Of a stretch of DNA of 64,000 nt, positions 1 through 56,981 are shown piece after piece. The stretch spans positions 62,001 through 126,000 of the forward strand of contig JAFCMP010000024.1 in assembly GCA_017506865.1 (NCBI GenBank), in the 5' to 3' direction. How positions within the stretch are numbered: position 1 is the stretch's first letter; each line of letters opens with the position of its first letter. Made by a program: the position numbers and the translations under genes. A model generated the notes under the pieces. That model was not told the DNA's origin and made no database searches. It saw only the letters and a program-made list of their open reading frames with translations. Source of the stretch: Tribonema minus. Taxonomy: Eukaryota > Sar > Xanthophyceae > Tribonematales > Tribonemataceae.

Positions 1-149
1 CGTGTGCTCATTTCAGCCGTGCCCGACCCTGAACTACCTCTAATGTCTACCATGCCACTGGCCGCCATGCAGTGTGCTCATCATCATTGCTCAGCCATCC
101 CAACCTCACTTCGATAGCTCTGACCCCCAGCCCTACCGCTCCGCTGCGC

Positions 150-239
150 AGTGTGCAAGGCTAGCTACGGCCGCGCCGGCAGCAGCAGCTGCACCGCGTG
201 CGTCGCCTGTAATGGCTACCTCGACGTACATACTGTAGG
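150..239 (+). pseudogene. Truncated upstream copy of a cysteine-rich exon
   Basis: This stretch repeats the start of the functional exon at 389, including its 3' splice site and some 80-140 bases of upstream intron. The shared part runs through the CKAxYGRA and SSSCTAC residues, then diverges and meets a TAG at 237-239. It reads as a partial tandem duplication of an acceptor and exon start, not a usable exon. It is the first example in this window of the exon-edge copies described under findings. Confidence 0.6.
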
Positions 240-388: not shown

Positions 389-2857
389 TGTGCAAGGCCG
401 GCTACGGCCGTGCACCTGGCAGCAGCAGCTGCACCGCGTGCCCGGCCGGCACGTACTCCGACGCCACCATGATCACGTGCAAGCAGTGCCAGACTGACCG
501 CATCTCTGCCGCCAAGGCGAGCGTCTGCGTCGCGTGCACCGGCGGCAAGGTCGCCAACGTGGGCCAGACGAAGTGCGGTGAGTGATGGAATGGCGTACTT
601 CAGAGTTGAGGTTGACGCGCCTGCGTCGCCCTCACGCGAGGGTGTACTGGGAGTTGAGGTTAATGGTGAAGGTGCACTTCAGAATTGATATCAAAGTCTC
701 CAATGCGGGGCCAAGTAAATTGCGGTGAGTCACACGAGGGTGCGCCACCACACGTTGAGGGTGTACTTTAAGCGGAGGTAAGAGGTGAGGCATTTTCTAC
801 AAATGAGGCTGATGGGCACATGCCCGGCCTGGGACCGGCTACATAGATGCTCAACGCATTAAGGGAACAAGTGCATCTGATGCATGAGATCTGCTCGATC
901 ACGGTTGCCCTGTGACCCCCCCCCCCCCCCCCCCCCTCCCCCCCTCTCCCCACACGCGCGCGCTCTCAGTCTGCAAGGACGGCCAGGGCGGCGCAACTTG
1001 CAAGAAGTGCAACGTCGGCAACTACTCCAATGCGAGCACCAACTACCTCTGCGTCCCGTGCGCGACCGGCATCACGCCCGCCTCGGGGGCGGCCAAGTGC
1101 ACGGAGTGCGCCGCAAACAAGATCGCCGACGCCACGCGCACCGCATGCGGTGAGCTTAATCCTAACCCTAACTCTAACCCTAAATTTAGCCCTCCTTAAT
1201 TTGTCGACGCGTCATGAGTGCCTTAGGGGTAGGCTAACCCTGATCCAAACCCCAACCCTTGGATACATACAAATCCCAATCTTTGGATACATACATGCCC
1301 CTGCAGAGTGAATGAGGGGAGTGTGAGAGCTTCAAGTAGGCTGCTCGCTGTCTTCGTGAGTCGTGGTCAAATTGCGCATCACCCCACCTTGCGGCTGACA
1401 TTCCAATCTTTGTGGACACTTCACGCAGCACATTTTCAGTGTTTTAGAGTTGCGACGTGGCAGCCTACTGTTTGAGTCAGTCGCACTGCTCAGCACAATG
1501 TGGTACAGGTGCCCTTTGTGTGTGCATATGTGTGTGTGCGCGGTTCCTGAGCCCCCCTCGCCTCCCCCCCCGCATTCTAACCTCATCTCCCCCCCTCCCC
1601 CCCCCCCCCCCCCCTGCTTGCCTCTCCAGTCTGCCTGGACGGCTACGGCAGCGACGCCAGCGGCGACTGCGCGCAGTGCAAGGCCGGCCAGTACTCGAGC
1701 GCCGACACGAATCCGCCGCACACATGCCAGAACTGCGACCTCGAGTCCATCGCCAGCGCGGCCGGCTCGGCCACGTGCGCGACGTGTGAGACGAGCAAGA
1801 TCCCCAACGCCCTGCACACCGTCTGCGGTGAGTGCGCCTCTCTCAGCGCCTCAGCACTGTGCAAGCCCTCTGTGAACTTTGATGTTGAACTTTAATGTTG
1901 AGGTATTAACGTGACGAGCAAGATCCCCAACGCTCTGCACACCGTCTGCGGTAAGTGCCTCTCAGCGCCTCGGCATCGTTCAATGAACTTCAATGTTGAA
2001 GAGTTGATGCAGACGCGCGCGTGACGCCAGCGCGGTCGGCACTGTGCGGCGCACCGTCTGCAGTGATTGTGTCCCGAGTCGCGTTAACGCCTGGTTGTCT
2101 AGCACACTTGTAGCTTCTAGATTGTTGAGGTTGGGCCTCTCTCCGAGACACGACAGAGCACGAGCACGCATATGTGCATTGCGATCGTGACTTCTGCCGT
2201 GGCAGGAAAGCATTGCGCACAATTACTGCCAGTCACTCAGAGTGCATGTGGCTGCAGGCGCAAATGTGCCACATCGCAAAACAAATGTATGTGACAACCG
2301 CGACCGCACAGCCAAGACCCCATTTCACCCCCCTCAACGCGCTGCCCTTCCCCCCCCCCCCCCCCTCAAATACAGTGCCCCCCGGCTCGGAGGACGGCGC
2401 GGCGTACAAGCTGCAGACAGTGATCACGGGCGACGCGTCGTGCATGAGCTACGACGCGGCGGGCGCGCTGACGATGCAGCCGTGCAGCGCCGACGCGGCG
2501 TCGCAGAAGTTTGTGTGGACGTGGACGATCCCCGAGGCGAACCCCGCCAACGCGTACGGCCTCCTCAAGTCCGGCGCGCTGTGCGCGGACTTCACGGGCG
2601 GCACTACGCTGAGCGCTGTCAAGATGAAGGCGTGCAAGACGGCGGCGAACCAGAGCCAGCGCTGGACGAACGCGCGCGTCCTGTGCGCGGACGGCGAGTG
2701 CACGTGGCAGTTCGGCAACCGCGCCGCGCCGACCGCCGCCGACGCCGCCGTGCGCCTCCTGGTCAAGACGCCCAGCCTCAGCGGCAGCGCCAAGGTCGTC
2801 ATGGGCGCGCCCACGATGCCCGGCACGAACGCCGAGTGGTTCTTCCGCAAGTGGTAG
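389..2857 (+). CDS. Cysteine-rich module protein with ricin-B-like C-terminus (5' end outside window)
   Basis: Exons are read at 389-577, 970-1149, 1630-1827 and 2376-2857 (TAG stop). Each of the first three encodes one module of about 60-66 residues with regularly spaced cysteines (patterns such as CKAGxYS, CxxCETSKI, ending TVCG), resembling the GCC2/GCC3 or ephrin-receptor-like repeats of extracellular proteins. All introns are phase 1 (TGC G|gt ... ag|TC TGC), so modules are symmetric, as expected for exon duplication. The last exon has about 160 residues with QxW-type signatures (SQKFVWT, SQRWT) and paired cysteines, resembling a ricin-B beta-trefoil carbohydrate-binding domain. No start codon or signal peptide is seen; the gene should begin to the left of position 1. 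Role inferred: secreted or cell-surface glycan-binding protein. Exon borders are well supported by phase; domain names are by motif only. Confidence 0.72.
706..728 (+). repeat. Downstream echo of the exon 389-577 donor edge
   Basis: The last bases of the exon ending at 577, with its GTGAGT donor, recur here as a degenerate copy (GGCCAAGTAAATTGCGGTG...). The spacer between them also carries similar cycles of GTTGAGGTT-like sequence. The copy lies downstream of the true donor. Confidence 0.5.
916..944 (+). repeat. Homopolymer C polypyrimidine tract
   Basis: 21 consecutive C, then T and 7 more C, lie 26 bases upstream of the acceptor at 969. This replaces the usual mixed T/C tract of the 3' splice site. 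Confidence 0.85.
1151..1193 (+). repeat. Interstitial telomere-like repeats
   Basis: Several CCCTAA-type units (CCTAACCCTAACTCTAACCC and neighbours) follow directly after the donor at 1150, inside an intron of the cysteine-rich gene. Confidence 0.7.
1588..1614 (+). repeat. Homopolymer C polypyrimidine tract
   Basis: A C8-T-C18 run lies about 15 bases upstream of the acceptor at 1629. Confidence 0.85.
1913..2060 (+). repeat. Two downstream echoes of the exon 1630-1827 donor edge
   Basis: Positions 1913-1955 repeat the last ~37 bases of the exon plus its donor with one or two differences (CTGCACACCGTCTGCGGTAAG against ...GGTGAG), 122 bases downstream of the original. A third, more decayed version with GCACCGTCTGCAGTG lies at about 2031-2060. 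Both are inside the following intron. Confidence 0.8.
2350..2365 (+). repeat. Homopolymer C polypyrimidine tract
   Basis: 16 consecutive C end 10 bases before the acceptor at 2375 of the terminal exon. Confidence 0.85.
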
Positions 2858-21460: not shown

Positions 21461-21469
21461 TGCAAATCT

Positions 21470-38648: not shown

Positions 38649-38732
38649 CTAGCAGAAGCGGCCCAGGCGCACGTCGCTGTCGTACTTGCGGCGCGCAGAC
38701 TCGTCGCCAATGATCTCGTATGCCTCCGTGAC
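38649..38732 (-). CDS. Co-chaperone exon 14: end of J domain and stop
   Basis: After a TTTGTCAG| acceptor it encodes [18 protein letters not shown], the helix III-IV end of the J domain, then nine residues and TAG. Phase 0 with exon 13. Confidence 0.88.
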   Translation of the reverse strand, partial: VTEAYEIIGDESARRKYDSDVRLGRFC

Positions 38733-41700
38733 CTGACAAAACGGGGTGCACAGCGTGGGCGGCACGGTTCAGTGTGTCGCTTGCTGCACAGCAAGTGCTG
38801 TCGAGAAGCGCTATCTGCATAGCAATTTATGATGTGAAACACCTAGCCGCATGGTGTGCAAGGTGCCGCATGCTTTGCTATTGCGAAGCATCATCGCACT
38901 AATCTACACTCATGAGTCATGAGTGCGACTGTCCTGCGAAACTACAAGAGTACTTGCATGACAGTGCCTATGTGCACTTCAATCTTCAAAGCTGCTCCGC
39001 AAGGTGCCGCCTCCATGTTCATGCGGATGGAGGATCTGGCACGACCATGCAATACATCAGCGCTCTGCACAGCAGACCCCAAAACAGGAGCAACCTCAAC
39101 TTCAAGTATCGCTTTGAACCTGACGTTTCTCCTGGCGATCGTGCTAGACGAGAGATCGGTCTCATTGCCACTGGCTCGCTTTACATATAGGTACTGCAGG
39201 AGCTGGGTCAACCAGTTCTCACCTCCTTGTCTAACCTGCCAATCACAGTTGGACGCCGCACTTCTGCAACTGCCATTAAGCGCTATTGACTTATCACTTC
39301 GCGCAATTGTACATCTTGGAACACTTCATGGTACTCCAACGATGACTCCAATCCACAATCATCGCCACGACATGCAGCATGAACGCCAAGGCAGTGCTCA
39401 CCTCCTTGAACTTGTCCGCGGCGCCCGCCTCGCTGTTCTTATCCGGGTGGAACTTCAACGCCAGCTTGCGGTACGCCTGCCGAATGTCCTTAGCCGTGGC
39501 CGACCTAGCCACCCCCAGCACCGTATAGTGGCATCCTTTCCCCTTGCCAAGCACTGACGCGCCCCCGCTGCCCCCCGTGCTGTGGCGCCGCCCCCCCGTT
39601 CCGTGACTGCCGCCGCCGCCGCCACCGCCACTGTTTCCGTTGAAGAAGCCGCTCCAGTAATTGGAGTTGGCGTCGCCCCAGTCGTCGTCTGGTTCGTCGT
39701 CGACGTCGTCTGCAGGCGAAATTTGCAGAGAAAGTCGTCAGCACGGCGTGTCTGCAATCGATATAGAAGTAGGTCATCAAAGGGAAAGTCATCAGCACGG
39801 CGTGTCTGCGATCGATGTACGGTTGCAGCCGTGAAGTGGATAGTTGACGTTGGCATTTCCCCATGCGTCATTCGCGTCGTCGTTACCATCTTCTGCGGGC
39901 AGGATTCACTGAGGAATTCTTAGCACAGCATGCGTTTGATCAAGGCTGCTGGCATGAGCAAAGATGAGCCCGAACGGTTTGCGCTCACGGTCCATGCAGT
40001 TATGGGTGCTACTTCCGAGGTTGATATTTCGAAGAAATGTCGTCCCAGATCATCCACCAGCATCTGTTTGATTTCAGTCATAATTCGCACACGTCCGCCT
40101 TCGCCGCTGTCAACTTGAACAGTCTCGCCCACGTAACCGTTGCAGAGGCCGTTGAAGTAGCCGTACGCATGGCTGCTGTGTCACAAAAGCAGCTCGTGTG
40201 CGGTGCTGCTGCGCTGCTGCTGCAGCCTCTGCGTATCCAGGCACCTCTCTCTGGAATGCATGCACCAAGCACAAGATGCACTTCATCTGTGCAAGCTTCC
40301 AAGCGGGCGACAAGCCAGTGTTGCGCCCATCACCGTTGCGACATGAACGGCGAGAGGTGCGAAGCGTCGCGGACTGCCGCAATAGCTGTCCAAAGCAGCC
40401 ACATCTTGAGAATGTACGCGGCTTCTCTTGTTCTCCTCAAGTTCAAGTGCGTCAGCGCCGCAAAGGCTGATGCGCGCTGCGACCAACACCGTGACAACGC
40501 CCAGAACGCGTACCGCGGCAACCCTAACCCTAATCCTCACCCTAACCCCAAGCCGTTAACGTAGCCACGGGCGCAAGCGCAAGTATCACCGAAGTTCAAC
40601 TCAGCACGGCACCACGGCAGGGCTGCGCACCGTCAAAGTAGCTGCCGTAGTAGCTGTACGCGCCGCCGTCGCAACCCTAACCCTAGCCCTCACCTTAAAC
40701 CCAACCCGTCAGCATTGGTGATAATTGCGCTTGCGCTCGTGACAATTATGACCGAAGTTCAACTCAGCACGGCACTAAGGGAGGGGTCGCGCACCGTCGA
40801 AGTAGCTGTCGTAGTAGCCGTACGCGCCGCCGGCGCTGCGCCGCGCGTTCGCAGTTATCACCGAAATTCAACCCAGCACGGCCCTACGAGAGGGTCGCGC
40901 ACCGCCACGCATTCGTAATCTTCACTGAAGTTCAACTGATCAGCACGGCACAGCAAGCAAATTTGCGCACCGTCGAAGTAGCTGTCGTAGTAGCCGTACG
41001 CGCCGCCGGCGCTGCGCCGCGCGTTCGTCATCACAGCCGTTGCCGCATGCGCCCGCATCACCGAACTTCAATTCACCACGGCGCACACAGCGATTTTGAC
41101 GCAGCAGCAGCAGCAGCAGCAGTACCGCACAAAAACACGCCGCGCACCGTCAAAGTAGCTGTCGTAGTAGCCGTACGCGCCGCCGGCGCTGCGCCGCGCG
41201 TTCGCCGCGCGCGCGCGCCGCTGCGCCGCCGCCGCCTCCTTGCGCGCCGATGCCTGCACGCCGTCCATCTCCGCCCTCACCGCGTCTGCGTCCGCGGCGC
41301 TGACGTAGTCGTAGACGTCGTTCTCCGCGAGGAACGTGGCAAAGTCCTGCTGCGCGGCGGGCCACTGCTTGCACGCGCGGTACGCGCGCGCGCGGCGCAG
41401 GCGCGCCTGCGGCGTTATGTGTTGCGGGGGGGGGGGGGGGTTATGGAGTTTATGCGTCAGATATGGGGCTTGGTGTAGACCGTTACGTTACGTACGTGTT
41501 GGAGGCGCTGCGGTAGGCGTACACAATGCTGTCCGTTGGCTGCACGTGCAGAAAGTATGCGTGGCGCAGGTGCGCCTGCAGGCAGGGTATGGTTATGTAT
41601 GTGTCATTCGTGCGTATGCATATCCATACATGCGCTCGTGGCGTCTTATGTAGTTGATTATACGTATGAAGGCAAGCTCTGCATTCACAGAAGCAGGGCG

Positions 41701-44700
41701 CCACTAAGACGCACCAGACTGCAAACATGCAACACACCTTGTAGTACGAGGGGTTGCGCTTGAGCGCCTTATAGGAAGATCATACTTCAAAGTCCACGGC
41801 AAAGAGCAGAGGAAGCGGTACAATGGAAGAGCACGCTATTGCAAACCACCACACCTTAGACGACATCATGTCGCGACATGGTCGTCCACACGACATGAAG
41901 TCTGAAAGGCATGTCACGACATGGTCGTCCACAACGACAGGGTTCTCAGATGAAGCAGTCGACATATGTTGCCTGAACGACATGAAGTATGGCAGGCATG
42001 TCACGACATAGTCGTCTAGACGACATGAATTCTATCAGCAGCAGTCGACGTTGTCGCGACCACAACGACATGCAACGACATAGTTGAAGCTAGGAAGTTG
42101 AAGTACGATAATGACCGTTATTGCAGCTTCATATTGCGCCTGCCACGACGGCTGCAAAAGCGGTGTTATGCTATGCAGCCTCGAACCATCCCCTCTGTGA
42201 AACCGTCACGTTCAACTAGTTCTAACGAAGTTCTCACTGTGATGGCCGACAGCTGCTGAATTGGGTTTTGAATCGCTCTGCTGCAAGACGCTTTGGGTGT
42301 TGGGGCCCGCATTCACTGCAAGGCACATTCGGGGCGTATTGCTGCACCAGCACTACCAGCTCAGCGGCTCATTAGTAGCGTGGAGCTGTGACCCTTTCGG
42401 GTCATATAACCAACAAATACACCGAGGAGGAGCTTCTACGGCCTCGAGCCTTGATGCAGCTGTAAATAAGAGATCAGAGCCTACGCCAGTGTTGTCCGCC
42501 GCTTCAACGAGACTCTGACTGCGGCAGCGTCACCGCAGAATCGATCCTGTGTGCACTGCTGTGCACACACGACATGTTCACGACATATACGCGACATGAC
42601 ACAACATGAAGTGCAGCAACCTTGCGTCGACATGGTCGTGTAGGACGACATGAAGTAAGCGAGCCGTGTGCAACACCGTCGTCTGAGACGACATGAGCCT
42701 AGCAAACGGTACGCGACACCGTCGCGACATGATTTCTGGCTGCAGCGTCGCGACATGTCGTCGCGACTAGTTCGTGAAGGAATCATGTCGTCTAAGGTGT
42801 GCGAACCACCATGAGCACCTTTGCCGGGTTCCGCACTTGAGTGCAGAGAGCGCCGCACTTGACTGACGAACTTCAAGTACTTGAGCCCGTTAAAGAAATT
42901 CACCTTGTAGTACGCGGGGTTGCGCTTGAGCGCCTCCGAGCAGTCGATGACGGCGTCGCCGTTGCGGCACATGGCCATGCGCGCGGCGGCGCGATTGCAG
43001 AAGAGGCGCGCGTTGCCGAGATCGTCCATGGCGTCGCACTGCAGCGCCAGCGTGTAGCCCGCCGCCGCGCCTGCGTAGTCGCCCTGCAGATTTAGAGGTT
43101 GACGTTAGGGCTAGGGTTAGCGCTTGGGGTTTGGGGTACGGTAAGGGTTAGGTTTAGCGTTGAGCATCTTCATGTCAGCGTTAGGGGCACTGCAGTGCGA
43201 GCGTGTAGCCTGCCGCGGCGCGTGCGTAGTCGCCCTGCGCGGTTAGGGTTAGGGCTAAGGTTAGCGCTTGGGGTTAAGGTTAGCGGCCCGCCCTGACCCT
43301 TAGCTTTGGCGCTGACGTGAGGATTAACCCCAACCCCTCCACAGCGGCCGAGCATCTGCTGTACGCAATACATACTTTGCCCTGCCGTACACCAAATACG
43401 CACGTACCCTGCTGCAGGCAGCGTCGGCGGCGTCCCCGTGGCGCACGGGCTCCCTGTAGCGGCGCAGCAGGCCGCATCTACTGTGTTGTGCGCCAGTGCA
43501 TACTGGCCGTACTGTTGCAAAAGTACATTCAGGACGTACGCATTGCATACTGGCCCTGCTGTTGAATAATTACATTCAGTATGTACGCACCCTGCCGTAG
43601 GAAACTTCAAAGTGCATGCTATACAAGGTACATACATACCCTGCTGTAGGCGGCGTCGGCGGCGTCCTTGTGGCGCGCGGCCTCCTGTAACGGCGCAGCA
43701 CCTTGTGCATACCCTACTCTACGCGATACATACCTACGCTGCTGTACACCAAATACATACGTACCCTGCTGTAGGTGGCGTCGGCGGCGTCCTTGTGGCG
43801 CGCGGCCTCCCTGTAGCGGCGCAGCGTGCCGCTACTACCCTGCTGCAAGCAAATATGTCGAAGTGCATGCTTGCCCTAACATACAAGGATACATGCTTAC
43901 CCTGCTGTAGGCGGCGTCGGCAGCGTCCTTGTGACGCGCGGCCTCCCTGTAGCGGCGCAGAGGGTGGTCCGCCCAGCGCGCGCCCGCCTCCGAGAGCGCG
44001 TGCAGGCACTCATTTGCGCCGTCCACATCGCCTAAGTACCTGATACGCGTACAATACATACATACACATCGGCAATGTTATAAGTAGTTGAAGTTACACA
44101 CACAAGGCGCTAAAGTGACCATGTCAGAGTACCTGATACAAGAATAACGCATACATGCGGGCAATGGTGTACTGCAATTACTTGAAGTCTTCAATTACTT
44201 GAAGTCACACATTGAATGTTGCACACGTAACACGAGGCGAGAGGGAGACGAGCCGATGTCGCCCGAACACCTGATACGCGTACCGTACATACATATACGC
44301 ACAATGATACGGGCAATGATATAAGTACTGTGAATGAACACACGTGTCATGGGACGCATACAGTACATACATATACGGGCAATGAGTGAAAGCACACATG
44401 CGACATGAGGCGAGAAGGTGACAAGCCGATATCGCCCGAACACCTGATACATGTACAGTACATACATACGGGCAATGAAGTACTTCTTCAAGTGCTTGAA
44501 GTCACGCACGTGTCAAGGACCATCGGCATTGTCATGTCACCTTCGCGATTGCTGTTCTCCAAGCTAGGCATTGATGCCAGGCTCGGAATTTGACGACCAA
44601 TCATCACGACCGTAACGTCGCCTTTGATCCCAATGCCGCCTTCGCGACTGCTGTGCCCAAAGCTAGCTGTACATCATTGCCGAATTCAGAACCTGGCAAT

Positions 44701-47700
44701 CAATAATCATGATCATCAAGCTATTGACCTCAACGAGCTGCAGAGGCGGCGCGCCAGTACCAGTGTTTGCAGAGATATTGTTATGACAGAAGAGGCAGCA
44801 ACAGTAGTCTTGAAGCGACAACACCACTAATTGCGCATGCCTCAGCGAAGTGCAGAGGCAGTGCGCCAGCGCCACGTGGCCGCCCCTCTACAGCGCGGAC
44901 GCGGCATGCACAATTTGTGGTGCTGCTGCTTCTAGATCACGCCGGCGCGCCCAGACCTCCAAGGCGCTGTCAAGAGGCATCGCCTCTGAGTGCTGTGCTG
45001 ATACCTACGGTAGCAGTACTTCAGTGCCAATTTCAAAGTCTGGCAATCAATCATCATGATTTTTGATCATGACTATGAAGTCACTGACCTCAACGAACCG
45101 CAGAGGCAGCGCGCCAGTGCCACGTCGCAGCACTTCTGCAGCGCTTATAATTATGAATGGTGGTGTTTGTCGCTTCTAGAACAATTAGTGGCGTTGTCGC
45201 TTCTAGAGCAGACATCGGCGCTGCCACCTTCGCGACTGCGGTGCTCTAAGCTTGACGTTTCATGATGCCAACAAATAAAAAACTTTGAAGTAATAAATTA
45301 CATTCATGACTATGAAGTCACTGACCTCAGCAAGCTGCAGAGGCAGCGCGCCAGCGCTGCGTCGATGCCCCTCTGCAGCGCCGCCGCGGCGCACAATTAG
45401 CGGTGTTGTCACTTCTAGATCAGACGTGGGCTCTGGCGCCTTCGCGACTGCCGCGCTCAAACCTAGCTTCACATTAGTGGCAGACTTGACACTTGGCGAC
45501 CGATAATACTGATTATAGAGCCACTGACCTCAATGAGCTGCAGAGGCAGCGTGCCAGCGCCACGTCGCCGCCCCGCTGCAGCGCCGTCGCGCACAGCGCG
45601 TGCGGCGGCAGGCGCGACAGGCTGTAGCCCTTGTCGTGCATGACGCCGGGTCGGCCGTTGCGGCACAGGTCCGTGCGCACGGCGCAGGCAACGCACGCGT
45701 CCACCGCGTCCTGAAAGAGGTATACGCATGCATGCAAGTTGAACCTGTATGTTGAAAGCTGCTCGAGCCATATCTGTGTATGTGTGTACCCATATACCCC
45801 GAAGAACGCATGGCATGTATATGGGCAGTTGCGGCAGAGGTCCGTGCGCACGGCGCAGGCCACGCACGCGTCCACCGCGTCCTGAGGGGACAGGGGGTAA
45901 TGCGTGTACATGTAAGTTGAAAGCTGCTTGAGCCACTACTTGCGCACAGCATTGTAGCGTTTGGATAGGCCGTTGCTGCACTCGATGCACGCATCCACGG
46001 CGTCCTGACCGAGACAGAGGGGTACCGCGGGGTCGCACGCATGTCAGTCAAAAGCTACTCGAGCCGTAGCCACGAATGCCTTGTATTTTTCGTGTCTAGC
46101 GTTGTAGCGTTAGATAGGTGATTGCGACACAGGCCCGTGCGCACGGCGCAGGCCACGCATGCGTCCACCGTGTCCTGGGGGGATTGGGGTATGCGCGTAC
46201 AAGTAAGTTGCAGGCTGCTTGAGCCACTAGTTGTGCATAGCACTGTAGCGTGTAGGTAAGCCGTTGCGACAGAGGTCTGTGCGCACGGCGCCGGCCACGC
46301 ATGCGTCCGCGGCGGCCTGAGGGGACAGAGGGGTACCACGGGTTGCATGCATTCGAGGTGACAGCTACTTGAGCCGTACCCATGGACGCCTTACATGTAC
46401 ACATACTGATCGTGCGTACCCAGCATGTTAGCATGCATACAGGCCGTTGCTGTACAAGCTCATGTGCGCTGCGCAGGCGACACGCCGTCCTGCCGATGAG
46501 GGGGTACCGTAGGTAGGTAATGAGAGGGCACATACCCAAGTGCATGATGCTTGAGACATACCCATGGACGCATGTACGCAACCACGTGACAGTGCTCAAC
46601 GCGCTGCCGCGCCTTCATAACGCAGTCTGCGCCTGGCGTTCCTCCTGCTGCGTAAACTCTACAGGCAGCCCCGCCTACACGTGCACACATGGTGCTGTAT
46701 TACATGAGCGTCTGCAGGCAGATCACCCAACAACAGTTACACACCTTGTTCCGTTTCAGCTCGAGCAGGCGGAGGCCATACACATGCCTAGTGCCGTTGA
46801 GCTTGAGCAAATGGGCTACCTGTATGTATGTCTTACTTGAAGTATACTTCTATACATACCTGGTGCCGTTTGAGCTTCTGCAGGCAGAGGACCTTGATCA
46901 CGTGCGCCTTCATCAGGTTTGGCGACAGGTTCAGCGCCAGATCCGCTTGCTGTGCCGCAGTAGAGGTGAAGAATAAACAAGCACAATCAGTTGTGGGGCT
47001 GCAGTCATCGCCACACATGATCGTACTCCTTCTGTTTTTGTATGGACGGTACTGGACTTGAACCTCTGGTACATACTGTAACCGTTCCTCACACATGCAG
47101 TGAGGGGAAGCACCTATTGACAACCGTATTCCAACTTGAAGCTTGACCACTTCTCTGACTTCTCCTTTTAGCAAAATGGACATGTATGCATTCAGCTCAT
47201 GTATACTTTTTAGAGGAGTCGTGGGCCCACAGCACCGACACATAATCTGGGGCCTGCAGGCACAGCACTCTATGTACTTTGTGCCGAAAACGCGAGTGAA
47301 AAAAAGCAAACGCCCTACAGCCATCCATCGCGAGCCAGTGGCCATGAGCTTGCGCACTATATGATCAAGCACAGCGCACGCTCACACAAACCAAGATCTC
47401 CCGGTGGTGAACGCGCCTGCGCCGAACCTAACCCCACACCTTAGCCCTAGGAACTGCCAGCCCAGGAGAGCACGGCATGCCAAGTCCTTGAACAAAACAA
47501 AATCGAAATCCAGCCCAGGCCCAGCCCAGGCCTTGAGTGCTGGCCCAGCATCACGTCACCGGAACGTGGCCCGGGAAACTCAGCACGCACGCGTACTGTA
47601 CCAAGAGAACCATACATACATACATACCCTCACGGCGCCCGCGTAGTTGCCGCCGTGCTGCGACGTGGCCGCAAGGCCTGCGAAGCGCATCGCGTCAGCG

Positions 47701-50700
47701 GCGTTGCTGGCGCCCTGGCGGCACTCGTCCTGCTGCCGCGCGAGCGCCTCGAGGTCCGCCGCGCTGCACTTCAAGTTGAGGTTGCGGCGCTGCGCCGCCG
47801 CCTCCTGCGCGGCGCAGTCGAACGCGACGCGCGCGTTCTGGCGGCGACAGGCAGAAAGGCGCACAGCGGAAGAGTTTTCAGGGTGAAAATTCGGTCCGAT
47901 TTTGTTTAAAACTGTTCCTGGGTCACACATGTCATTTGCTTTCAATTTGTCATCAAAACAGATGATTTCAACTTCTTGATTCATTGGTTTTGAAACTTGA
48001 TCATTTTCATGCTTACTTGAATTAAGATGATTAAAAAATTGTACCATAAACAGTTTCTCTTTTGGATTCAAAGCAAAAGTGGGCTGAATGTAATACTTTG
48101 TACACAAAGAAAAAATTGCTTTGAGTATTGCATGTGTGCTGTGAGAAACGGGCGGCATGAAGCTACACACAGCATGGCCATCGCGTGCCGGACCAAGGCC
48201 TTGAGGTACCTGGCGTCGAAATCCCCGCTTGCAAGCTTAGGGTTAGGGTTAGGGTTATTACTACGGCAAAATCCTCACGTACATGAGTATCTATATATAG
48301 CCTCGCTCAGGGAACAAAAAAGCACCAGTGCACTTCTGGTATTAGAAATTGCACTTGAAGTGATGGATCACCTGCAGCTCCGGCCATCAACATGGCCCTC
48401 GCGCACCGTATCATGGCCATGAGGCACCTGGCGTTTGAGGTTCGCACTTGCAAACTTCAAGTGCGTCCACATGGGTCTTCCTTGCTTCTTGCTTAGAGCG
48501 CAAAAAAGCCGCCCTGTGAAATCTCATTGTGATGTGAAACTGCTTATACAATTTGTTTACAAACAAGCACATGTGATTATGAGGGTGCTTACCTGCAGCT
48601 CTCCGGCCATCAGCATGGCCCTCGCGCGGCGTATCGTGGCCTTGAGGCACGTGGCGTTGAGGTTCGCACTTGCAAACTTCAAGTGCTTCCTCAAATACAT
48701 GGGTCCTCGCTTAGGGCGCGAGAAAGGCCAGTACGCATACCGTTCATGTGGAAGTGAAAAGTGTTTGTTTACAAGCACATGTACTTTGAAGTAACTGATC
48801 ACCTGCAGCTCTCCGGCCATCAGCATGGCCCTCGCGCGGCGTATCATGGCCTTGAGGCAGCGGGCATCGAGGTTCATGGCCGTCTCGCAGTCGTTGGCGG
48901 CCTCCGTGTACAGCTCCAGCATCATCTGCGGCGCGCAGAGCAACGAGGCGCCGAATTGCCGACTGCTGTGTGTTTCAAAGGATTAGGATTAGGTTTAGGG
49001 TTGGGGTTAGCTCTGTAGAAAAATGCTGGGGCTCGAGTCGTGCGCATGCAATCATCCGTGCCGCTCTGCACAGGTTGCAGGCGTAACCGCACACTTCAGG
49101 AGCACTCTTTTCCCTGACATTTGCAAGACAGTAGGACAGATGCGGATGAGGCGCTCAATCAAGCTCTCACAAAAGAAGTTTGTGTGCTCCTCGTGTTCTT
49201 TCCTGGTCAGATCCGCTAGGAAAATGGGGCGCGCCGCCCACCGCATGCCTTCCTGAGAGAGGAGTCAATTCCAACTTCATTCAACTTCATTGCTGCTCAC
49301 CAGCGTGGCGGTTCTGTTGCTGAACGGCTGCACAAGCCGCTTCGCAATGCGACGCAATCGCAGTTGGGCAGAATCAGATAGGGTTGCGCGCAGTCGTACC
49401 TGCCGCGTGGGCTACATCGCTCAGCAGCTGCACGAGTCGTCGCAATCACACTTAAAACACGGCGAAACTTGGGCGCTCACCAGCGTGGCGGCCCTGTTGC
49501 AGAGCAGCAATGCGAGCCATCGCAACAGCGCCGGCCATTGCAATGGCCCTGTTGCAGAGCAGCAACGCGGGTCATCGCAGCAACGCAAGTCATCGCACTC
49601 ACACTAAAAGCCAGGGCTGACCTGCGCGCTCGCCAGCGCGGCGGCCCTGATGCAGAGCGGCAACGCGAGCCATCACAATAGCGCCGGCCATTGCAATGGC
49701 CCTGTTGCACAGCAGCTGCCCGAGTCATCACAACAACACGAGTCATCGCAATCGCACGAAAACCAGCGCTAAACTGGGCGCTCACCAGCGTGGCGGCCCT
49801 GTTGCAGAGCAGCTGCGCGAGTTGTTCCGCGGCGCGCACCTCGGACAGCGGAGCTTCCGGGGGTGACTCTCACGCAGAAGAAGTTTGTGCGCTCGTGTTC
49901 TTTCTGGTCAGATCTGCTAGGAAAACAGGGCGCGCCGCCCACTGCGTGCCTGCCCGAGACAGGAGTCAACTTCAACTTCATTACTGCCTGGCCCATGCTC
50001 ACCAGCGTGGCAGCCCTGTTGCAGAGCAGCTGCGCGAGCCGTTCCGCGGCGCGCTCCTCCGACAGCGGAGGTTCCGAAGGTGACTCTCCCGCGCGCGCGT
50101 CCGCGCGCGCCTGCGTCGCCGCCTTGAGCAGACTTTCCGCCGACCTGCCACGTGTTCGGAAGGGGCATGTATGTATGTGAATAGTTGAGTTTGGGAGGTT
50201 CTTGAGGTGACTCTCCCGCGCGCGCGTCGCGCGCGCCTGCGCCGCCGCGCTGCCACGTGTTAGAAAGGCATGCATGTATGTGGAAAGTTGAAGTTTAAAT
50301 GGTTCACGAGGCGACTCTCCCGCGCGTGCGTCCGCACGCGCCTGCGCCGCCGCCTTGAGCAGACTTTCCGCCGACCTGCGACGTGTTGGAACGGGCATGT
50401 ATGTATGCAGAGGAGTGAGGTTCAGCCCGGAAAGGCTGCGCTCGCGCGGGGCATTGCACACCATCTGACTGAGAGAACATACCATCTGAAGTTAAATATT
50501 TAAAATTTACTCGCCTCCTGCCATTGTGAACGAGCGCAACTTGTAGTGCAACTTGTACACTGCCTGGACAGAAGGCTCTCTCACGCACTTCACCACTTGG
50601 TGAGTGCATATACGCTTCTACGCTGACGTCAGTGGGCACCTCCGAGCCTGCTTGGCGCGCATACGCCTTGCGGAATCATGCGCACTTTTAATAGATGCGA

Positions 50701-53700
50701 CTTGAGGTGACGCTCCACGTTCAGCAGCGCTGCTCCGCACAACGCGCCGTGACCGTGACCGTGTGCGTGCTGTTGACCACGCGTTGATGATTTTACCGTA
50801 TGTCTGAGGATGAGGCCAGCTGTGGGATATGCCGCTGTGCTGCCACGATTGTACTGGCGCTAGCGTTCATGGCGCACTGTGCCGTTTGCTGGAGCTTGAC
50901 TGTAATGTTGAGTATTTACCCCCCACGGGCATCCTGGCTGACCCTGCCCCCCCCCCCCGCCCCCCCCCCCCCCCCCCCGAAAAGAAAAAGGGGCACGTGT
51001 GTGTTGTGCGGGCAAGTTTGCTGGCCTGGAAGTTAATGGCATTTCGCATCGGTGACCAGATTTGAGCAGAAAGTGATGACACGGCGACAGATAGGATGCT
51101 GCCAGTGCTAGCTACATGCGCGGCACCTCTCCGTGTCAACCACTCCCTGCTCAAATCTTGTCACCGAATGCGAAATGCCATCAACTTTCTTGCCAGCAAA
51201 CTTGCCAAATCAACACGTGCCCCTGCACTTTTCTTTAGCGCTGAGACCACATGTTGAAGTTATTACCTCAATGTATGTGACCAATGATGAGGTGATGAGG
51301 CCACTGGATGACATCGGGCAAGCGCTGCGGAGACATCTGCGTAGTAAAGTGTCAACTCTACTGGTCTAAATGTGTGTTAAGGTATTATGTTCGCTATGAT
51401 GATAAGTCCGCCGACAACGACGCGCAAACACCTCCAAGCGCGAAAGCGGGGGGCCCTACCTGATGGCCTGGCTGTACTCAATGACTGCGACGTTGTACTT
51501 GCCGCCCTTGTAGCTGACCGCGCCCTTCTCCGAGAACTCCTCAGCGAGTGCCTGCGCCGCAGCGGCAACAGCAGCAGGCATATGCGCATCGGAAGAGGAT
51601 GAAGCAGTGTGCGTGGCGAAAGCGACTTGGGGGACCGGGGGGGAGGGGGGCGCAGCGGCCAGGATCGTGTAACATCTCAGTGTCTCATAAGTGCTATGCG
51701 CGGCAATGGCATTGGTGACAAACGTGTGATATCCCAACAGTGCTTTGCGTAGCAGTGGCGTCGGAGACAACGAGCGTGGGGCGGCGCATGCGCAGCGCCT
51801 TTATGCTGCAGCGCCGTTCCGCTACACCTGCTACCGGCGATGGCAGCGTTCCTTGCCGGGAGCAAGGCGCTCTGTCAGCACCGTGCCTGCAACGCCCGCA
51901 CAGCCGGTCTGGAACCCGACAATGACGACGATACCAGAGGGACCGCAGCGCCGTTCCGCTCTGTCAGCAGCGCGCCTGCAACGCCCGTACAGCTGGGGTC
52001 GCAAACTCGATCAATTGTGAAGTTACCACCCCTGAAGGAACGCTCGAATGGCAGCGCCGCAGACTCGATCACGCAGACGGCGCCATCGCCAGACGCCGCG
52101 AGCCCCCATGGCGGCGCCGTGCACGGCCGCAACCTTGAGGTTAGGGTTAGTATCAAGTTGAAGTTAGCCGACCTACACTACGGTAGCACAAAGGGGGCTT
52201 AGCAGGGGCACCGTGATGGCGCCAGCCACCGTCGCCGCTTTTCGCAGTGTCCTGACCAGCATGGCGGGGAGGACTCAAAAGTGGCACGGCGTTGGACCAC
52301 CTCGCACGCAGCATGGCGCCAAGGGTGGAGGATGCATTGCGGTGGACATTGAGTGTGTCGGAGTTTTGTTGTTCATTGCTGAAACTTTGGATTTGTTGAA
52401 GTTGGGGAGGCAGCGCTCCGCACCCCAGCGCCTCACCCGCATGCGCTCCTGGTTCTCCCTCTCCAGTCGCTGCGCCTTGCACCGCAAAAGCTTCGAGGTA
52501 TACTTCAAGTATACGTATTGAGCGGTAGGGTTGGGCACTGCGCCGCCGGTGCTAGAGGCCAAGGGGTGTCGGATTTTACTGTTGTTTTTCTTTGCTTTCA
52601 TGTTGAGAACAGGGTACAGGGCAGCCTGAGCTGCAACGCTCACCCGCATGCGCTCCTGGTTTCATTTACTTGTGTGCATTTATTCTGATGTTCAGGTTGA
52701 GGTTAGGGCAGCCTGAACCGCAACGCTCACCCGCATGCGCTCCTGGTTCTCCCTCTCCAGCCGCTGCGCCTCGCGCCGCATCGCCTTCTCCTCCAGCTGC
52801 TGCTGGTGCGCCCGCCGCAGCGGCGCCGCAGGATCGTCGTCGGCGCCGTCGCTGCTGTTCAATGGCAGGGCGCAGCATGCCACACGATAGCAATTTGTTC
52901 AATGACAGGGCGCAGTGTGCCACATGCTAGAAATTCTCGTGACGATACGCGCACTGAGTGAACATGATGATTGACGTTCTTGCTGGCACTCCTTGCGCGG
53001 CGGCGGCGCCGTCGCTGCGGATTGACAGCGGCTCGCGGTGAGCGGGGCGTGTGACGATGCAACTCTATGCAGGCTGACATGACATGAATTTTGACGACCT
53101 TCCGTTGCTCGCTCGCTGGCCGGCGGCGGCGGCGCCGTCGCTGTAGTTCAATGGCAGGGTGCGGCGCGCCACATGAGAGCGAACTGCGTGGCGATACGCG
53201 CACAGGCATGTGTCACTGAGTGAACATGACACTTGACGTTCGTGCTGGCACGCGTTGCGCGGCAGCGATGCCGTCGCTGCAGTCTGACGGCGGCACATGG
53301 TGAGCGATGAAGCAACCGTAGGCATGTCACTGACGTGAAATGAGACTTGAGTTTTTGACGACACTCCGCCGCTCACTCTGCGCCGCTCGCTCTGCATGCC
53401 AGCAGCGCCGTCGTTGCGGGATACGCGGGGGGGCGGCATGCCACGCGATGGCAGACTGTATGATGTCCCACAATGCCTGAGCAAAGTCGCTGATGTGAAC
53501 ACTCAACTTAGAGTGTGAGCCGACTGCGCAGCAGCTGCCGCCGGCGTTGCTGCCGTGTCTGTGATGAGCAGCACCGCAGCCGCAGCAGTGCTTCACACCA
53601 ACGTAATGCTCACATTGTAGCAGCGCACGCCTGCATTTCTGGCCTATGGTCCACAGAGAGGGGCCCTTTGTCATCGCAGAAGACTTGATCATGTCTGGGG

Positions 53701-56700
53701 CTACACGTAAGCAAAAGGCCAGTAAAGCGACACGATACCAGTGCACGGGGGCGCAATCAGCGCTTCCCAAATGCGCCGCCTACAGGAATAGGCGGACCTG
53801 AAACTACACAAAAGGAGGAACGGCGCGTATCCACAAAATAAACACTTCTTGAAGTTGTGTCATTGCTGGGACACGCTGCTGCGCCTGAACCCTAGGCTTG
53901 CCCTTGTACCTGACTGCGACATCACCGCCGCCGCTGGCATCCATGTAGTCCGCAGCGCCGCCGCCGCCACCACCGCTGCCGCCGCCGTCTCCGCTGCCGC
54001 CGCCGCCGCCACCGCCTCCGCCACCACTGCTCCTGCTCTTCTTGTGGTTCAGCTCCGACCGCAGCGACGATGACGCGGCGCTAACGGGGGACACTGCGGA
54101 GCCCCCCCTGCCGCCCCCCCTGCCCGCCTCCCCCTTTGCCCCCCTACCGCGCCCCCCCCGCGCCCCCGCCGCCCCCTTCTCCGCCGGTGCCGCGCGCTTG
54201 TGCTCCTGCCCGAGCGCGAACGCGAAGCCCGCGAACAGCGAGTCGCTGCTGCCCGCCGACGACGACGGCGGCGCCACGGAGACGGGGCTGAACGGCGGCG
54301 AGGCGGTGGCAGTGCTCGGCGACAGGTGCGGCGAGCCCGCTGCCGCTGCCGCCGCCGCTGCTGCTGCCGGCGCGCCGAAGACGAACGCGGCGGGCGCGAA
54401 CGGCACGCCGCGCGGCACGCTCGCAGCCTCCGCCGCCGCCGCCGCCGCGCCGTTGAACACGAACGGGGAGGCCACGGCGCGCGGCGGAAAAGCCATGGGC
54501 GGTGGCGGCGCGGCGGCGGCAGCAGTCGAGCGCTGCTGCGTCTGCGCGCCGAAGACGAATGACGGGGTTGGAGGCGGCGCAGCCGCCTGCTGCTGCTGCT
54601 GCTGCCCGCCGGCGCTGAATACGAACGCCGGCGCTGCTGCAGCTGGCGGGCGCGGCGTCGGCTGCCCGAAGAGAGTGCGGGACATGGCTGGCTGCTGCTG
54701 CTGCTGCTGCGCGGCGCGCTGCTGCCCGCCGGTCCCCGCGCCGAACACAAACGCCGCCGGCGCTGGGGAGGGTGTGGTCGGTGCGCACCGCTGCTGCGGC
54801 GTGCGGTACTGCGCGTTGGAGCCCCCGCCGAACACAAACGCTGGCGGCGCCGGGGACGGCGTCGGCGGCGCGTGCTGCTGCTGCGGCTGCATCGTGCGGT
54901 ACTGCTGCTGCTGCGGCTGCTGCTGCAGCCGCCAGCCAGGCAGCAGCCCGGGTGCGGCTGTGGTCGCCGCCGTCCGCACCGCTGCTGCACCCTGAGCCGA
55001 CCGCTGCTGCTGCTGCTGCTGCTGTCGCTGCTGCGGCGGCGGCGGCGACACGCCGTGCGACGGCGCCCTGTGGCGCAGGCCGTCATCCTCGTCGTCGCAG
55101 CCGGCGCCGCCGCCGCCGCCGCGGTGCGCGCCCGCCGCCGCCTTGCGCTGCTGCTCGCGCCTGCGCGTCTGCGCGCGCGCAAAGTAGCTCGAGTCCTCGT
55201 CCTCATCGCTGAAGGCGCCGATCTGGCCGTCCGACAGGCGGTCGTCATCGCAGGACATGTAGTCCATTGGCGACGGCGCGTACTGCTGCGGAGCCGCCGC
55301 ATGAGATCGCTTCGCCGGGCTCCCTGTGTGACTGCCGTAACTGTTCTCACGGGAGCGCTGAGCGCTGCTGCCGAAAGGCCGCCGCCCGCGCCCCCGCCCC
55401 TTCTTCCCGCTGCTCCCCCCTGACCCCCTGCCCACGGTAAATGTGGCGGCAGCGAAGGGCGCCGCAGCAGGCGGCGCTGTCGCTGCTGGTGTGCGGGCGC
55501 GCTGCTGCCGCGGAGGCGTGCGCGGCGCCGCCGCCGCCGCCGCTGCTGCGGCCGCGCTGAACGAGAACGCCGGCGGCGGCGGCGGCGGCGGCGCTGCTGA
55601 GAAGAGCCCCCCCGCCGCGCCCCCCCTGTGTGCGTATGCGGACGGCGGAGTCTGCGGCGCCGCCGCTGCGGTCGCAGCCGCTGTCGCGCTGAACGAGAAG
55701 GGCGGCGGCGGCGGCTGCGCAGTGGCGGCAGGTGCTGCAGCGCCGCGGCCCTGCTGCTGAGCAGCTGACGCAGCGCTGCTGTCGCTGCCCGGACTGCCCT
55801 GCGCCGCGCCAATCCATGATGGCCTTTGCGAGTCCGCAAAGAGCCCAGCAGCAGCATCAATGGGCTTTGGCGCAGCGGCAGCAGCAGCAGCGCTGGCAGT
55901 ACTTTCTTCAGCGGCTGCTTGCTCTGCGTCCGCTGCTGCTGCTGCTGCAGCGGCGCGCGGCTGCTGCTGCTGCTGAGCGCTGCCCTCCTCGCTCTGCGGC
56001 TGTGTTTCGTCCGCCTCCGCGCCCTCCGGCTCGCATGACGACCACGCCGCATACCAGCCAACAAACTGGTCGCGCGTGACCGACGCTGAGCGCTGAGGGC
56101 CTTCGCCGAAGGCTGACGCGCAGGCGGCCGCGACTTTTGGCGCGGAATGGCCCATGGACCTCAGGAGAGCGGGAAACGCTGACGCGGGTATCGCATTTGT
56201 TCCGCACAAAGCCTGCTGAAACGCTCTGCCAGCCTGGCAGACGACGAGGGGCACATGAGTCAGCCGCATGTCTCGGGAATGCTTTGTGTGTGGCACTAAT
56301 CTGGGAGGTGGGTGCGTGGCGTGCGTCGTGGGAAGATCCGGTGGTGCGTGTGATGAGAGCAGCCTGTGGCACGCAGTCTGTACTCTGCTCTGTGATCTGC
56401 ACTCTGCAGGAAACACGTGGTGAAATCATGAGAAGCATGTGGGGTGACAGAAGGTAGGCGCTGCAACTGTGTCACAGCGCGTGCCTGCAGTTGAAAATCC
56501 AGGCAAAGACCAAATCACATCCTAAACTCCCCCCATACGCCACACGTGACACCACGGCACCAGCCGGGACTGACAATCTGCTGGGCGTGAGTGAGAAAAG
56601 GACACTGGCACACAGACGGCACATTTTCAGACAACGGCGTACCTTCGACTTGAGGGCGTCGGCGACCGGATCCTGCTGCACATCGTCCTGTCGCGGCGAT

Positions 56701-56981
56701 GCTGCGGAACTGTGAGCCGAATCGTCATCGGATGCGTCCGGCGCAGCAGTTGCGGCAGACCGCGTGCCTTTCAGGGCACCATCGAGGCATACGTCGCTCA
56801 TCCTTGCAGTGGCGCCGTGGATAGCGTTGACGAGATCCGGGTCTTCAAGGCCCAGCCGCTGAATCATCTCCAGCAGCGAGGCGCGAACCTTGCGGGACTC
56901 CTCATCATCGGTGCTGAGGTTCATGTCGGCTAGGCCCCTGATGAACTCCTGCATCTGCGGTTGACTTATAGGCGATCGCAT
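38649..56981 (-). CDS. DNAJC7: FG-repeat / TPR / J-domain co-chaperone (DNAJC7-like), 14 exons
   Basis: Exons 56981-56643, 56233-53910, 52854-52731, 51551-51460, 50144-50003, 48925-48803, 47837-47628, 46949-46860, 45710-45529, 44039-43901, 43083-42904, 41406-41148, 39709-39402 and 38732-38649 total 4596 nt (1531 residues) with every junction in phase. Exon 2 holds an EF-hand-like segment and an FxFG-rich region. TPR helices follow ([50 protein letters not shown]). The C-terminus is a J domain with HPD, which would stimulate Hsp70 ATPase, while the TPRs bind Hsp70/Hsp90 tails. TPR plus C-terminal J is the DNAJC7/TPR2 layout; the FG-type N-terminus recalls plant TPR-DnaJ proteins. The protein ends right after J helix IV. 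Possible fusion of exons 1-2 with a separate gene is not excluded. Confidence 0.88.
39402..39709 (-). CDS. Co-chaperone exon 13: linker and J domain
   Basis: An acidic linker ([13 protein letters not shown]) and a Gly-rich stretch lead into [20 protein letters not shown] and [11 protein letters not shown], with the essential HPD motif. Donor GTGAGC after FKE. A degenerate copy of the 5' edge lies just upstream at about 39845-39897. Confidence 0.92.
39726..39897 (-). repeat. Upstream echo of exon 13 acceptor edge plus a 57-bp duplication
   Basis: 39845-39897 resembles the first ~50 bases of exon 13 with its CTGCxG acceptor. Between them AGTCRTCAGCACGGCGTGTC is repeated twice about 57 bases apart. 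Confidence 0.55.
40519..40705. repeat. Interstitial telomere-like repeats
   Basis: Two clusters, AACCCTAACCCTAATCC at about 40519-40548 and AACCCTAACCCTAGCCC at about 40673-40700, in intron 12. Confidence 0.7.
40625..41033 (-). repeat. Three downstream echoes of exon 12 donor edge
   Basis: The last ~60 bases of exon 12 with donor recur, anchored on GCGCACCGTC at 40965, 40789 and 40625 (true copy 41142). Spacings are 177, 176 and 164 bases. Each carries AGTAGCTGTCGTAGTAGCCG or a close variant and is followed by CCGAAGTTCAACTCAGCACG-like spacer. Confidence 0.92.
41426..41440 (-). repeat. Homopolymer C tract before exon 12 acceptor
   Basis: 15 G on plus, so C on the sense strand, about 20 bases upstream of the acceptor of exon 12. 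Confidence 0.85.
41736..41771 (-). repeat. Downstream echo of exon 11 donor edge
   Basis: CACCTTGTAGTACG, then GGGTTGCGCTTGAGCGCCT, copies the 3' end and donor of exon 11 (42904 onward), about 1.17 kb into intron 11. Confidence 0.85.
41855..42790. repeat. CGACATG minisatellite cluster
   Basis: About 15 copies of CGACATG or CATGTCG, often as GTCGCGACATGGTCGTC or ACGACATGAAGT, in two blocks (41855-42085 and 42560-42790) of intron 11. Local palindromes such as GTCGTCTAGACGAC occur. A related block lies at 62222-62290. Confidence 0.8.
43100..43290 (-). repeat. Echo of exon 11 acceptor edge among telomere-like repeats
   Basis: 43190-43237 copies the first ~50 bases of exon 11 with its acceptor (CGTGCGTAGTCGCCCTGC). 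It is embedded in GGGTTAGGGTTAGGG-like sequence at 43105-43160 and 43238-43290. Confidence 0.8.
43402..43830 (-). repeat. Three downstream echoes of exon 10 donor edge
   Basis: Copies anchored on CCCTGCTG at 43768, 43639 and 43407 (true edge 43900) repeat about 55-60 bases of exon 10, reading [16 protein letters not shown] with changes, plus the donor. Intron spacers carry TACATACGTACC-type sequence. Confidence 0.93.
44128..44460 (-). repeat. Three upstream echoes of exon 10 acceptor edge
   Basis: CACCTGATAC / TACCTGATAC acceptor cores recur near 44136, 44268 and 44443, with following GATRTCGCCCGAA and ACATACATA spacers. The true acceptor is at 44040. Confidence 0.75.
44727..45397 (-). repeat. 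Four downstream echoes of exon 9 donor edge
   Basis: Starts near 45325, 45088, 44839 and 44727. Each has the TGACCTCA donor edge, then GCTGCAGAGGCAGCGCGCC-type exon sequence, up to about 70 bases, with shared spacer words TCATGACTATGAAGTCA and CTTCTAGA. Confidence 0.92.
45827..46496 (-). repeat. Five upstream echoes of exon 9 acceptor edge
   Basis: Copies at about 45827-45885, 45970-46008, 46120-46180, 46261-46325 and 46441-46496 repeat CCGTGCGCACGGCGCAGGCC, then CACGCRYGCGTCC and the CCTGA acceptor. Spacers share TTGAAAGCTGCTTGAGCC. Confidence 0.93.
46742..46812 (-). repeat. Two short downstream echoes of exon 8 donor edge
   Basis: CCTTGTTCCGTTTCAGCTCG and CCTAGTGCCGTTGAGCTTGA copy the end of exon 8 (CCTGGTGCCGTTTGAGCTTC). 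Confidence 0.7.
47872..48140 (-). other. AT-rich, coding-like island in intron 6
   Basis: 47941-48120 is only about 28% GC by my count, far below its surroundings. The minus strand is open across it for over 90 codons, in the same frame as exon 7, and reads like protein ([40 protein letters not shown]). The family is not recognised. It may be captured foreign or organellar DNA, a transposon remnant, or an alternative exon. Confidence 0.55.
48170..48668 (-). repeat. Three downstream echoes of exon 6 donor edge
   Basis: Copies start near 48594, 48369 and 48170, against the true edge 48803. Each repeats ACCTGCAGCTCTCCGGCCAT, then ATGGCCCTCGCGC and CCTTGAGGCA, followed by CTTGCAAACTTCAAGTGC. Confidence 0.93.
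48238..48257 (+). repeat. Interstitial telomere-like repeat
   Basis: TTAGGGTTAGGGTTAGGGTT, three perfect units, in intron 6. Confidence 0.9.
48980..49012 (+). repeat. Interstitial telomere-like repeat
   Basis: GGATTAGGATTAGGTTTAGG followed by GTTGGGGTTAG, degenerate, in intron 5. Confidence 0.65.
49298..49850 (-). repeat. Four downstream echoes of exon 5 donor edge
   Basis: CTCACCAGCGTGGCGGCCCT, then GTTGCAGAGCAGC, recurs near 49781, 49624, 49477 and 49298, against the true edge 50003. The nearest copy covers about 80 bases of exon. Spacers carry GTCATCGCAATCGCAC repeats. Confidence 0.93.
50202..50395 (-). repeat. Two upstream echoes of exon 5 acceptor edge
   Basis: GACTCTCCCGCGCGCGCGTC, then CGCGCGCCTGCG up to the CCTGCxACGTGTT acceptor, recurs at 50202-50265 and 50305-50395. 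GGGCATGTATGTATG intron sequence is copied as well. Confidence 0.92.
50947..50978. repeat. Homopolymer C tract (plus strand)
   Basis: C12-G-C19 on plus, inside intron 4. It is poly-G on the sense strand, so it is not a polypyrimidine tract for this gene. Confidence 0.85.
52429..52660 (-). repeat. Two downstream echoes of exon 3 donor edge
   Basis: CTCACCCGCATGCGCTCCTG, then GTTCTCCCTCTCCAG, recurs at 52429-52485 and, shorter, at 52634-52660. True edge 52731. Confidence 0.88.
52995..53420 (-). repeat. Four upstream echoes of exon 3 acceptor edge
   Basis: GCGCCGTCGCTG-type exon starts recur near 52999, 53130, 53266 and 53405. The second also keeps the TTCAATGGCAGGG intron end. True acceptor 52855. 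Confidence 0.75.
53910..56233 (-). CDS. Co-chaperone exon 2: EF-hand-like and FxFG-rich region
   Basis: 2324 nt, phase 0 to phase 2, 774 codons. The first ~60 residues ([20 protein letters not shown] ... [13 protein letters not shown]) resemble a degenerate EF-hand pair. The rest is low-complexity Ala/Gln/Pro/Gly with at least eight FxFG/FVFG-type motifs ([51 protein letters not shown]), like nucleoporin FG regions, plus RG-rich patches. It ends at CAG|GTACAA. Reverse-strand and other-frame readings of this GC-rich exon are artefacts of composition. Confidence 0.8.
56643..56981 (-). CDS. Co-chaperone exon 1
   Basis: 113 codons from ATG at 56981 to a GTACGC donor, phase 0. The sequence ([34 protein letters not shown]) is helical and acidic and carries no recognised domain. 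An earlier in-frame start is possible because the frame stays open upstream. Confidence 0.65.

Follow-up and report, generated by a model that had tools for sequence, protein, structure and literature searches.

The window analysed here, a 64-kb stretch of Tribonema minus DNA, contains a gene for a TPR and J-domain co-chaperone and, at its start, a Cys-rich repeat gene (Table 1). Joined together, the exons of the co-chaperone gene can be read through for 1531 aa; the intron phases agree, and all 13 introns are GT-AG. The gene, its coordinates and its 13 introns are as an earlier note on this DNA had described them. The C-terminal 602 aa match the Pfam families DnaJ (9.1e-24) and TPR_2 (8.1e-08), and the closest protein relative (27% identity over 63%) carries DnaJ and TPR domains, so that the product can be called a DNAJC7-like co-chaperone.

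The rest of the window includes pieces of a hAT-type transposase on the minus strand (29369-32917, with a Dimer_Tnp_hAT match in 29369-30103), which are 68% identical over 77% to one JGI-source protein. Also on the minus strand are a copia-type gag (8303-9214, Retrotran_gag_2), a possible SARAF-like gene that falls below the Pfam cut-off (60359-60967), and a G-patch/DUF4187 gene (63019-63795). Several direct repeats of ~120-350 bp with 69-95% identity lie at 15634-23195 and are tied to no gene model here. No relatives were found among viral contigs, in a search that possibly left out records near the window.

For each of the 26 exon edges of the co-chaperone gene, the outermost 80 nt of exon were compared with the adjoining intron and scored as z relative to 200 dinucleotide shuffles. 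On these exon letters alone, z reaches 8-30 against the adjoining intron at 10 of the 26 edges (Table 1), and at all ten the edge's own intron ranks first against the other 12 introns of the gene. Introners, which would place similar sequences in many unrelated introns, are thus ruled out, since none of the ten strong edges matches any intron but its own; the window self-comparison at E 1e-3 contains no cross-intron blocks of this gene. On the reverse strand, the ten strong edges all score below the highest of the 200 shuffles (up to ~3 sd over the mean), and exon interiors compared with introns give z of at most 3.4 in nine comparisons. We also rule out exon duplication, or the exons of a repeat protein, because only edges are copied, the interiors are null in these nine comparisons, and the frame would be broken at 25 of 29 copy splice sites. 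This agrees with the view of the earlier note that one edge is copied at a time, unlike in exon duplication.

Copies were listed using the exon edge plus 25 nt of intron, with a 99% shuffle threshold for each edge, which over 26 edges leads to an expected ~0.3 false first matches. Above this threshold are 34 copies, at 16 of the 26 edges and in 10 of the 13 introns, and every one of the 34 alignments crosses the exon edge. The earlier note had arrived at the same ten introns and at "about 38" copies, a number close to ours before weak copies are set aside. For all later counts we kept 29 copies in 12 families (Table 1) and removed five by eye (53631-53496, 46814-46738, 41594-41475, 40233-40124 and 39916-39798) for low score or identity, the splice dinucleotide being absent in two of them and present in three. 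The exon 3 and exon 10 acceptor families, which were kept, score no better than these five; with an exon-only z of just 1.2 and 1.3, they rest on the edge-plus-intron match and the intron part. Exon-only scores are near the control range at the donor edges of exon 2 (4.5), exon 8 (3.7) and exon 13 (4.8) and at the exon 13 acceptor edge (3.5). Hence, among the nine exons for which copies had been claimed, seven (3, 5, 6, 9, 10, 11 and 12) are well supported, while exons 8 and 13 are weak (z 3.5-4.8).

Table 1. Genes with exon-edge copies in the window, and the copies assigned to each edge (z for the co-chaperone gene from exon letters only)
Feature	Position	Strand	z	Remarks
TPR + J-domain co-chaperone gene (DNAJC7-like)	56981-38649	minus		14 exons, 13 introns, complete
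Exon 3 acceptor-edge copy	53098..53165	minus	1.2	edge 53143, AG lost
Exon 3 donor-edge array, 2 copies	52409..52730	minus	16	edges 52643, 52436
Exon 5 acceptor-edge array, 2 copies	50145..50407	minus	25	edges 50249, 50375
Exon 5 donor-edge array, 4 copies	49164..50002	minus	24	edges 49785, 49633, 49480, 49300
Exon 6 donor-edge array, 3 copies	48135..48802	minus	30	edges 48592, 48371, 48156
Exon 9 acceptor-edge array, 3 copies	45711..46392	minus	17	edges 45881, 46174, 46316
Exon 9 donor-edge array, 4 copies	44634..45528	minus	16	edges 45325, 45088, 44840, 44728
Exon 10 acceptor-edge array, 2 copies	44040..44518	minus	1.3	edges 44270, 44443; mainly intron sequence
Exon 10 donor-edge array, 3 copies	43356..43900	minus	22	edges 43764, 43639, 43407
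Exon 11 acceptor-edge copy	43084..43286	minus	12	edge 43234
Exon 11 donor-edge copy	41727..41830	minus	8	1166 nt from source, past intron-only repeat 41867-42072
Exon 12 donor-edge array, 3 copies	40606..41147	minus	19	edges 40970, 40794, 40630
Cys-rich repeat gene (second gene)	1-2857	plus		ricin-B-type lectin match below Pfam cut-off, last exon
Cys-rich gene acceptor-edge copy	9..226	plus	13.8	exon part ~152-226; upstream of exon ~389-577
Cys-rich gene donor-edge copy	1911..1951	plus	10.4	exon ending 1827, 38/40 nt

Two further comparisons support the copies. In the window self-comparison the edge copies match nowhere else, save for one CAG-type match, and a codon model finds ~12 short coding-like stretches inside introns, on the gene strand and coincident with copies (this model was trained on exons of the same gene and is not fully independent). 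Self-alignment and shuffle controls, which are among the kinds of check proposed in the earlier note, thus show copies that are local to their own intron on this window, and the edge-copy pattern is confirmed as real.

Assemblies often go wrong at tandem arrays, and stacked haplotypes or misjoined repeats might have produced such a pattern. We give this almost no credence, given that identity to the source ranges from 0.71 to 0.95 among the 29 copies, that no uniform sequence is shared by the copies or by their intron halves, and that two genes, one on each strand, show the pattern.

All edge copies are inside introns of the gene model. The introns that bear them are 2, 3, 4, 5, 6, 8, 9, 10, 11 and 12; those without copies, introns 1, 7 and 13 (409, 678 and 669 nt), are the shortest in the gene. 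Measured from the true edge to the farthest copy, and with the exon 11 donor copy excluded, array spans take up 5133 of 13737 intron nt (37%); for introns 9 and 10 the share is 81% and 79%. The correlation between intron length and copy number is weak (rho 0.46, p 0.11).

Each copy lies in direct orientation in the intron that adjoins its source. Spacing within arrays is 87-293 nt (median 176 nt), with one exception at 1166 nt. The splice dinucleotide is retained in 25 of 29 copies (donor GT 17/20, acceptor AG 8/9), or in 28 of 34 when the five weak copies are included. Donor copies have a mean strength of 7.4 bits, compared with 8.9 for the true sites when self-scored and ~7.0 when each is left out in turn, a scoring that favours the copies because their source sits in the matrix; 16 of the 20 are stronger than 95% of 886 intronic GTs. 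Were a copy's splice site to be used, the result would be a frame shift or stop at 25 of the 29 sites and an in-frame, stop-free extension of the exon at four (both exon 5 acceptor copies, the first exon 6 donor copy and the first exon 9 acceptor copy). These four frame-keeping sites could be occasionally used.

Might the copies then be functional, as decoy or alternative splice sites, or as alternative exons, kept by selection? Their largely intact splice dinucleotides, a donor strength comparable to that of the true sites, and the four in-frame extensions are what such a role would lead one to expect. Against it, the mismatches between copy and exon are spread almost equally among the three codon positions (125/627, 122/630 and 153/635 for the first, second and third, in a tally that includes poorly aligned ends), so there is no clear codon-position bias. 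In addition, some copies contain frameshifting indels, the frame is broken at 25 of 29 sites, and each copy has a single edge (in a comparison that covered the edges). We therefore call the copies non-coding, on the basis of the codon positions, the indels and the broken frames, and consider a selected function very unlikely.

What exactly has been copied? When copies are chosen by their exon part, their similarity to the true edge drops sharply beyond donor +6 and before acceptor -4. Between copies, over 30 nt, the exon side is 0.84 similar and the intron side 0.62, with the exon side higher in 26 of 27 pairs. When decay is simulated as a rough yardstick, this asymmetry corresponds to ~2- to 4-fold more change on the intron side. 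At most 2-fold is expected if the copy is neutral and its source constrained, and the excess argued for conversion or constraint. In a reverse search we took as the query the 70 nt of intron beside each edge, with no exon letters. Of the 16 matches that this gave, 13 lie where exon-edge copies were already known. In these the intron and exon similarities are about equal (0.82 and 0.81, the exon value being the best of 25 placements with a chance level of 0.61), the exon part exceeding the 95% chance level in 8 of the 16. As the two halves are about equally alike in this search, we conclude that the copied unit is a single block spanning the junction; the asymmetry between exon and intron stems at least partly from how the copies are found. 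Each such block is direct, tandem and contiguous, and consists of exon edge, splice site and intron.

Selective constraint on the copies, at which the exon/intron difference had hinted, was rejected, being unsupported by the codon positions and absent in the reverse search. Within six arrays, exon and intron similarities are uncorrelated (mean rho -0.02). Discordance between the two was considered as proof of conversion and was dropped, since 0 of 108 triples of copies are significantly discordant and one is concordant. Given the best-of-25 placement in the reverse search, and the 8 of its 16 matches that exceed the chance level, gene conversion or constraint may still act on the copies.

The order of the copies does not suggest polar growth outward from the exon, which we rejected because nearest copies are not consistently the youngest: in five of nine arrays the nearest copy resembles the exon more closely, in three less closely, and one array is a tie (p 0.36). 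For the intron parts in intron 10, the closest pairs are copies 1 and 3 (0.75) and the true edge and copy 2 (0.67), as might be seen after a two-unit duplication; the margin is small.

In light of a block that crosses the junction, are the borders themselves special? Against the 12 edge families stand three intron-only direct repeats at offsets of 47-89 nt (41867-42072, 43497-43589 and 51868-51996), a count (2-3) that took in just this offset range and not the shorter TRF arrays at 43241-43285, 45167-45220 and 53367-53395 or a 40-bp repeat directly upstream of exon 3 (52856-52935). The first of the three, with a 43-bp unit in ~3.9 copies, is an intron-only tandem array that separates the exon 11 edge from its distant copy. 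We modelled the geometry by placing blocks of the observed spacing randomly and discarding any that included both edges. At least 12 edge families of 14-15 then arise with p 0.26-0.43 if ancestral introns measured 300 nt, 0.04-0.10 for 409 nt and 0.006-0.016 for 543 nt. Under this model, geometry can explain the edge excess if ancestral introns were at most ~300 nt long, and is an unlikely explanation above ~400-540 nt. If the old introns were of a length similar to the duplicated block (median spacing 176 nt), a tolerated duplication could hardly miss one edge, and the borders would not have to be targeted.

It has to be weighed whether borders nonetheless act as hot spots, be it for duplication or for unequal recombination, with the exon serving as a master copy that re-seeds or converts the copies. 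Such a process would account for the 12 edge families as opposed to 2-3 intron-only ones, for an excess that geometry is unlikely to yield from ancestral introns of at least 543 nt, for an exon side better preserved than the intron side between copies, and for exon and intron similarities that vary as if they had separate histories. However, geometry is enough up to an ancestral length of ~300 nt (p at least 0.26), and introns 9 and 10 have 285 and 173 nt outside their array spans. Moreover, the exon bias is missing from the reverse search and no triple is significantly discordant. We regard border hot spots as unlikely. Similarly doubtful is the broader proposal that the borders of this lineage are active duplication sites, where homology of a constrained edge restarts unequal exchange and introns come to "echo" their edges genome-wide. 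Repeated duplication "centred on" borders, as the earlier note put it, is therefore supported as duplication across them, but not as centring on them.

Our preferred reading is that tandem duplication of ~90-290 bp blocks across splice junctions lengthened most introns of the co-chaperone gene. We consider this likely, and the earlier suggestion that introns grow by tandem duplication across their borders with exons fits the data. In this mechanism, a tandem duplication of a ~90-290 bp block would happen to span a splice junction. At a donor edge, the exon tail, the GT and the intron head would then stand twice in succession, and the spliceosome would use the first donor, leaving the second hidden in the intron; at an acceptor edge, it would be the last AG that is used. 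Junction duplications would be tolerated because the outermost splice sites are used. A duplication that took in an entire exon, or an intron with both its edges, would mostly not be tolerated, so that survivors hold one edge. Unequal exchange or slippage between repeats may have brought some arrays to 3-4 copies, which would then decay as non-coding DNA. What we observe are the copies, which run on into intron sequence, point the same way as their source, lie next to it and show no clear codon constraint; outermost-site use, neutrality and unequal exchange as the amplifier are the steps that we infer.

Edge copies are also present at two of seven edges tested in the Cys-rich gene. Its acceptor copy is found in the window self-comparison (9-201 against 253-441, 77%), and its donor match stops at the final exon base. 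Six comparisons cover three further coding segments at 58-64 kb, for which the ends are not established as splice sites; z is 0.4-2.5 in five of them and 4.9 in one, with that match in a GCT-rich repeat. Within the 64-kb window, then, edge copies are neither confined to one gene nor found at every edge.

Two other sequence features were noted in the window. The 7-mers ACTTCAA and TTGAAGT occur 15 and 10 times in the co-chaperone introns where ~0.6 of each would be expected (26- and 16-fold), sometimes inside the palindrome-like AACTTCAAGTT, and 48 times across both strands of the window, including at 10669-10918 and 62185-62356. We know of no function for them; as a recombination motif they were rejected, since they occur in the rest of the window too (their link to junctions was judged by eye). 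Intron 4 contains a long imperfect palindrome (50981-51236, 75% over 274 columns), and a second one is at 10578-11014 (68%).

How do these arrays relate to published cases? In the human CBS variant c.844_845ins68, 68 bp comprising the intron 7/exon 8 junction are duplicated and the extra exon part is spliced away, the distal splice site being favoured so that normal mRNA results (PMC2630376). This case demonstrates that splicing can conceal a junction duplication. The intron 7 site is named a "donor" in that source and is taken here to be on the acceptor side by position. The blocks in the co-chaperone gene are direct tandem duplications of the same composition, and outermost-site use with unchanged mRNA would be predicted for them as well. 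There are differences, in that the CBS insertion is one copy at one edge and a polymorphism, whereas the co-chaperone gene has 12 families of up to 4 copies each in 10 of 13 introns. CBS also carries a 31-bp VNTR named c.1444_1467+7(16_21) (PMC2630376). By our own reading of the name, this is 24 nt of exon end plus 7 nt of intron repeated 16-21 times, and thus a donor-edge array; unlike the co-chaperone arrays, it is a short polymorphic unit at one border.

In the potato RdRp gene, a new intron is described as arising from a tandem duplication crossing an intron-exon boundary, and in fission yeast AGGT duplicates occur, with introns that extend over two or four duplicates in tandem (PMC4974935). 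The likeness to the co-chaperone gene lies in the junction-crossing duplication (potato) and in several tandem copies in one intron (fission yeast). As described there, the outcome is a new intron, whereas in the co-chaperone gene existing introns appear to have been lengthened. Donor duplication has been proposed as the origin of Lipomyces stwintrons (PMC7138796), which share with our case that donor elements are duplicated within an intron already present. They differ in involving 4-7 nt duplications and nested introns, removed in consecutive reactions, instead of ~90-290 nt blocks. A Raphidocelis paper, which deals with mitochondrial intron expansion, was set aside as not relevant. The earlier note knew of no named system of this kind. 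This stands insofar as we found no report in the open-access literature of whole-gene intron growth by edge duplication, and does not stand for single cases, which have been published (CBS ins68, the CBS VNTR and potato RdRp). Hence, the elementary step is already known (human CBS, potato RdRp) and the scale, at 37% of intron DNA, is unusual.

To our knowledge, the lengthening of introns without transposons is poorly documented. Here, the edge of the adjoining exon can be named as the source of a large share of the intron DNA of one gene. The interest of this finding hinges on how common edge arrays prove to be genome-wide. If they are common, they would offer a countable and datable route of intron growth, as well as a natural test of how the spliceosome chooses among several near-identical sites in series. 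They would also be a warning to gene predictors, which could call false exons in such introns, as the coding-like stretches flagged by the codon model suggest. Should duplication be driven by the borders themselves, the length of an intron would be a by-product of the constraint on the adjacent coding sequence.
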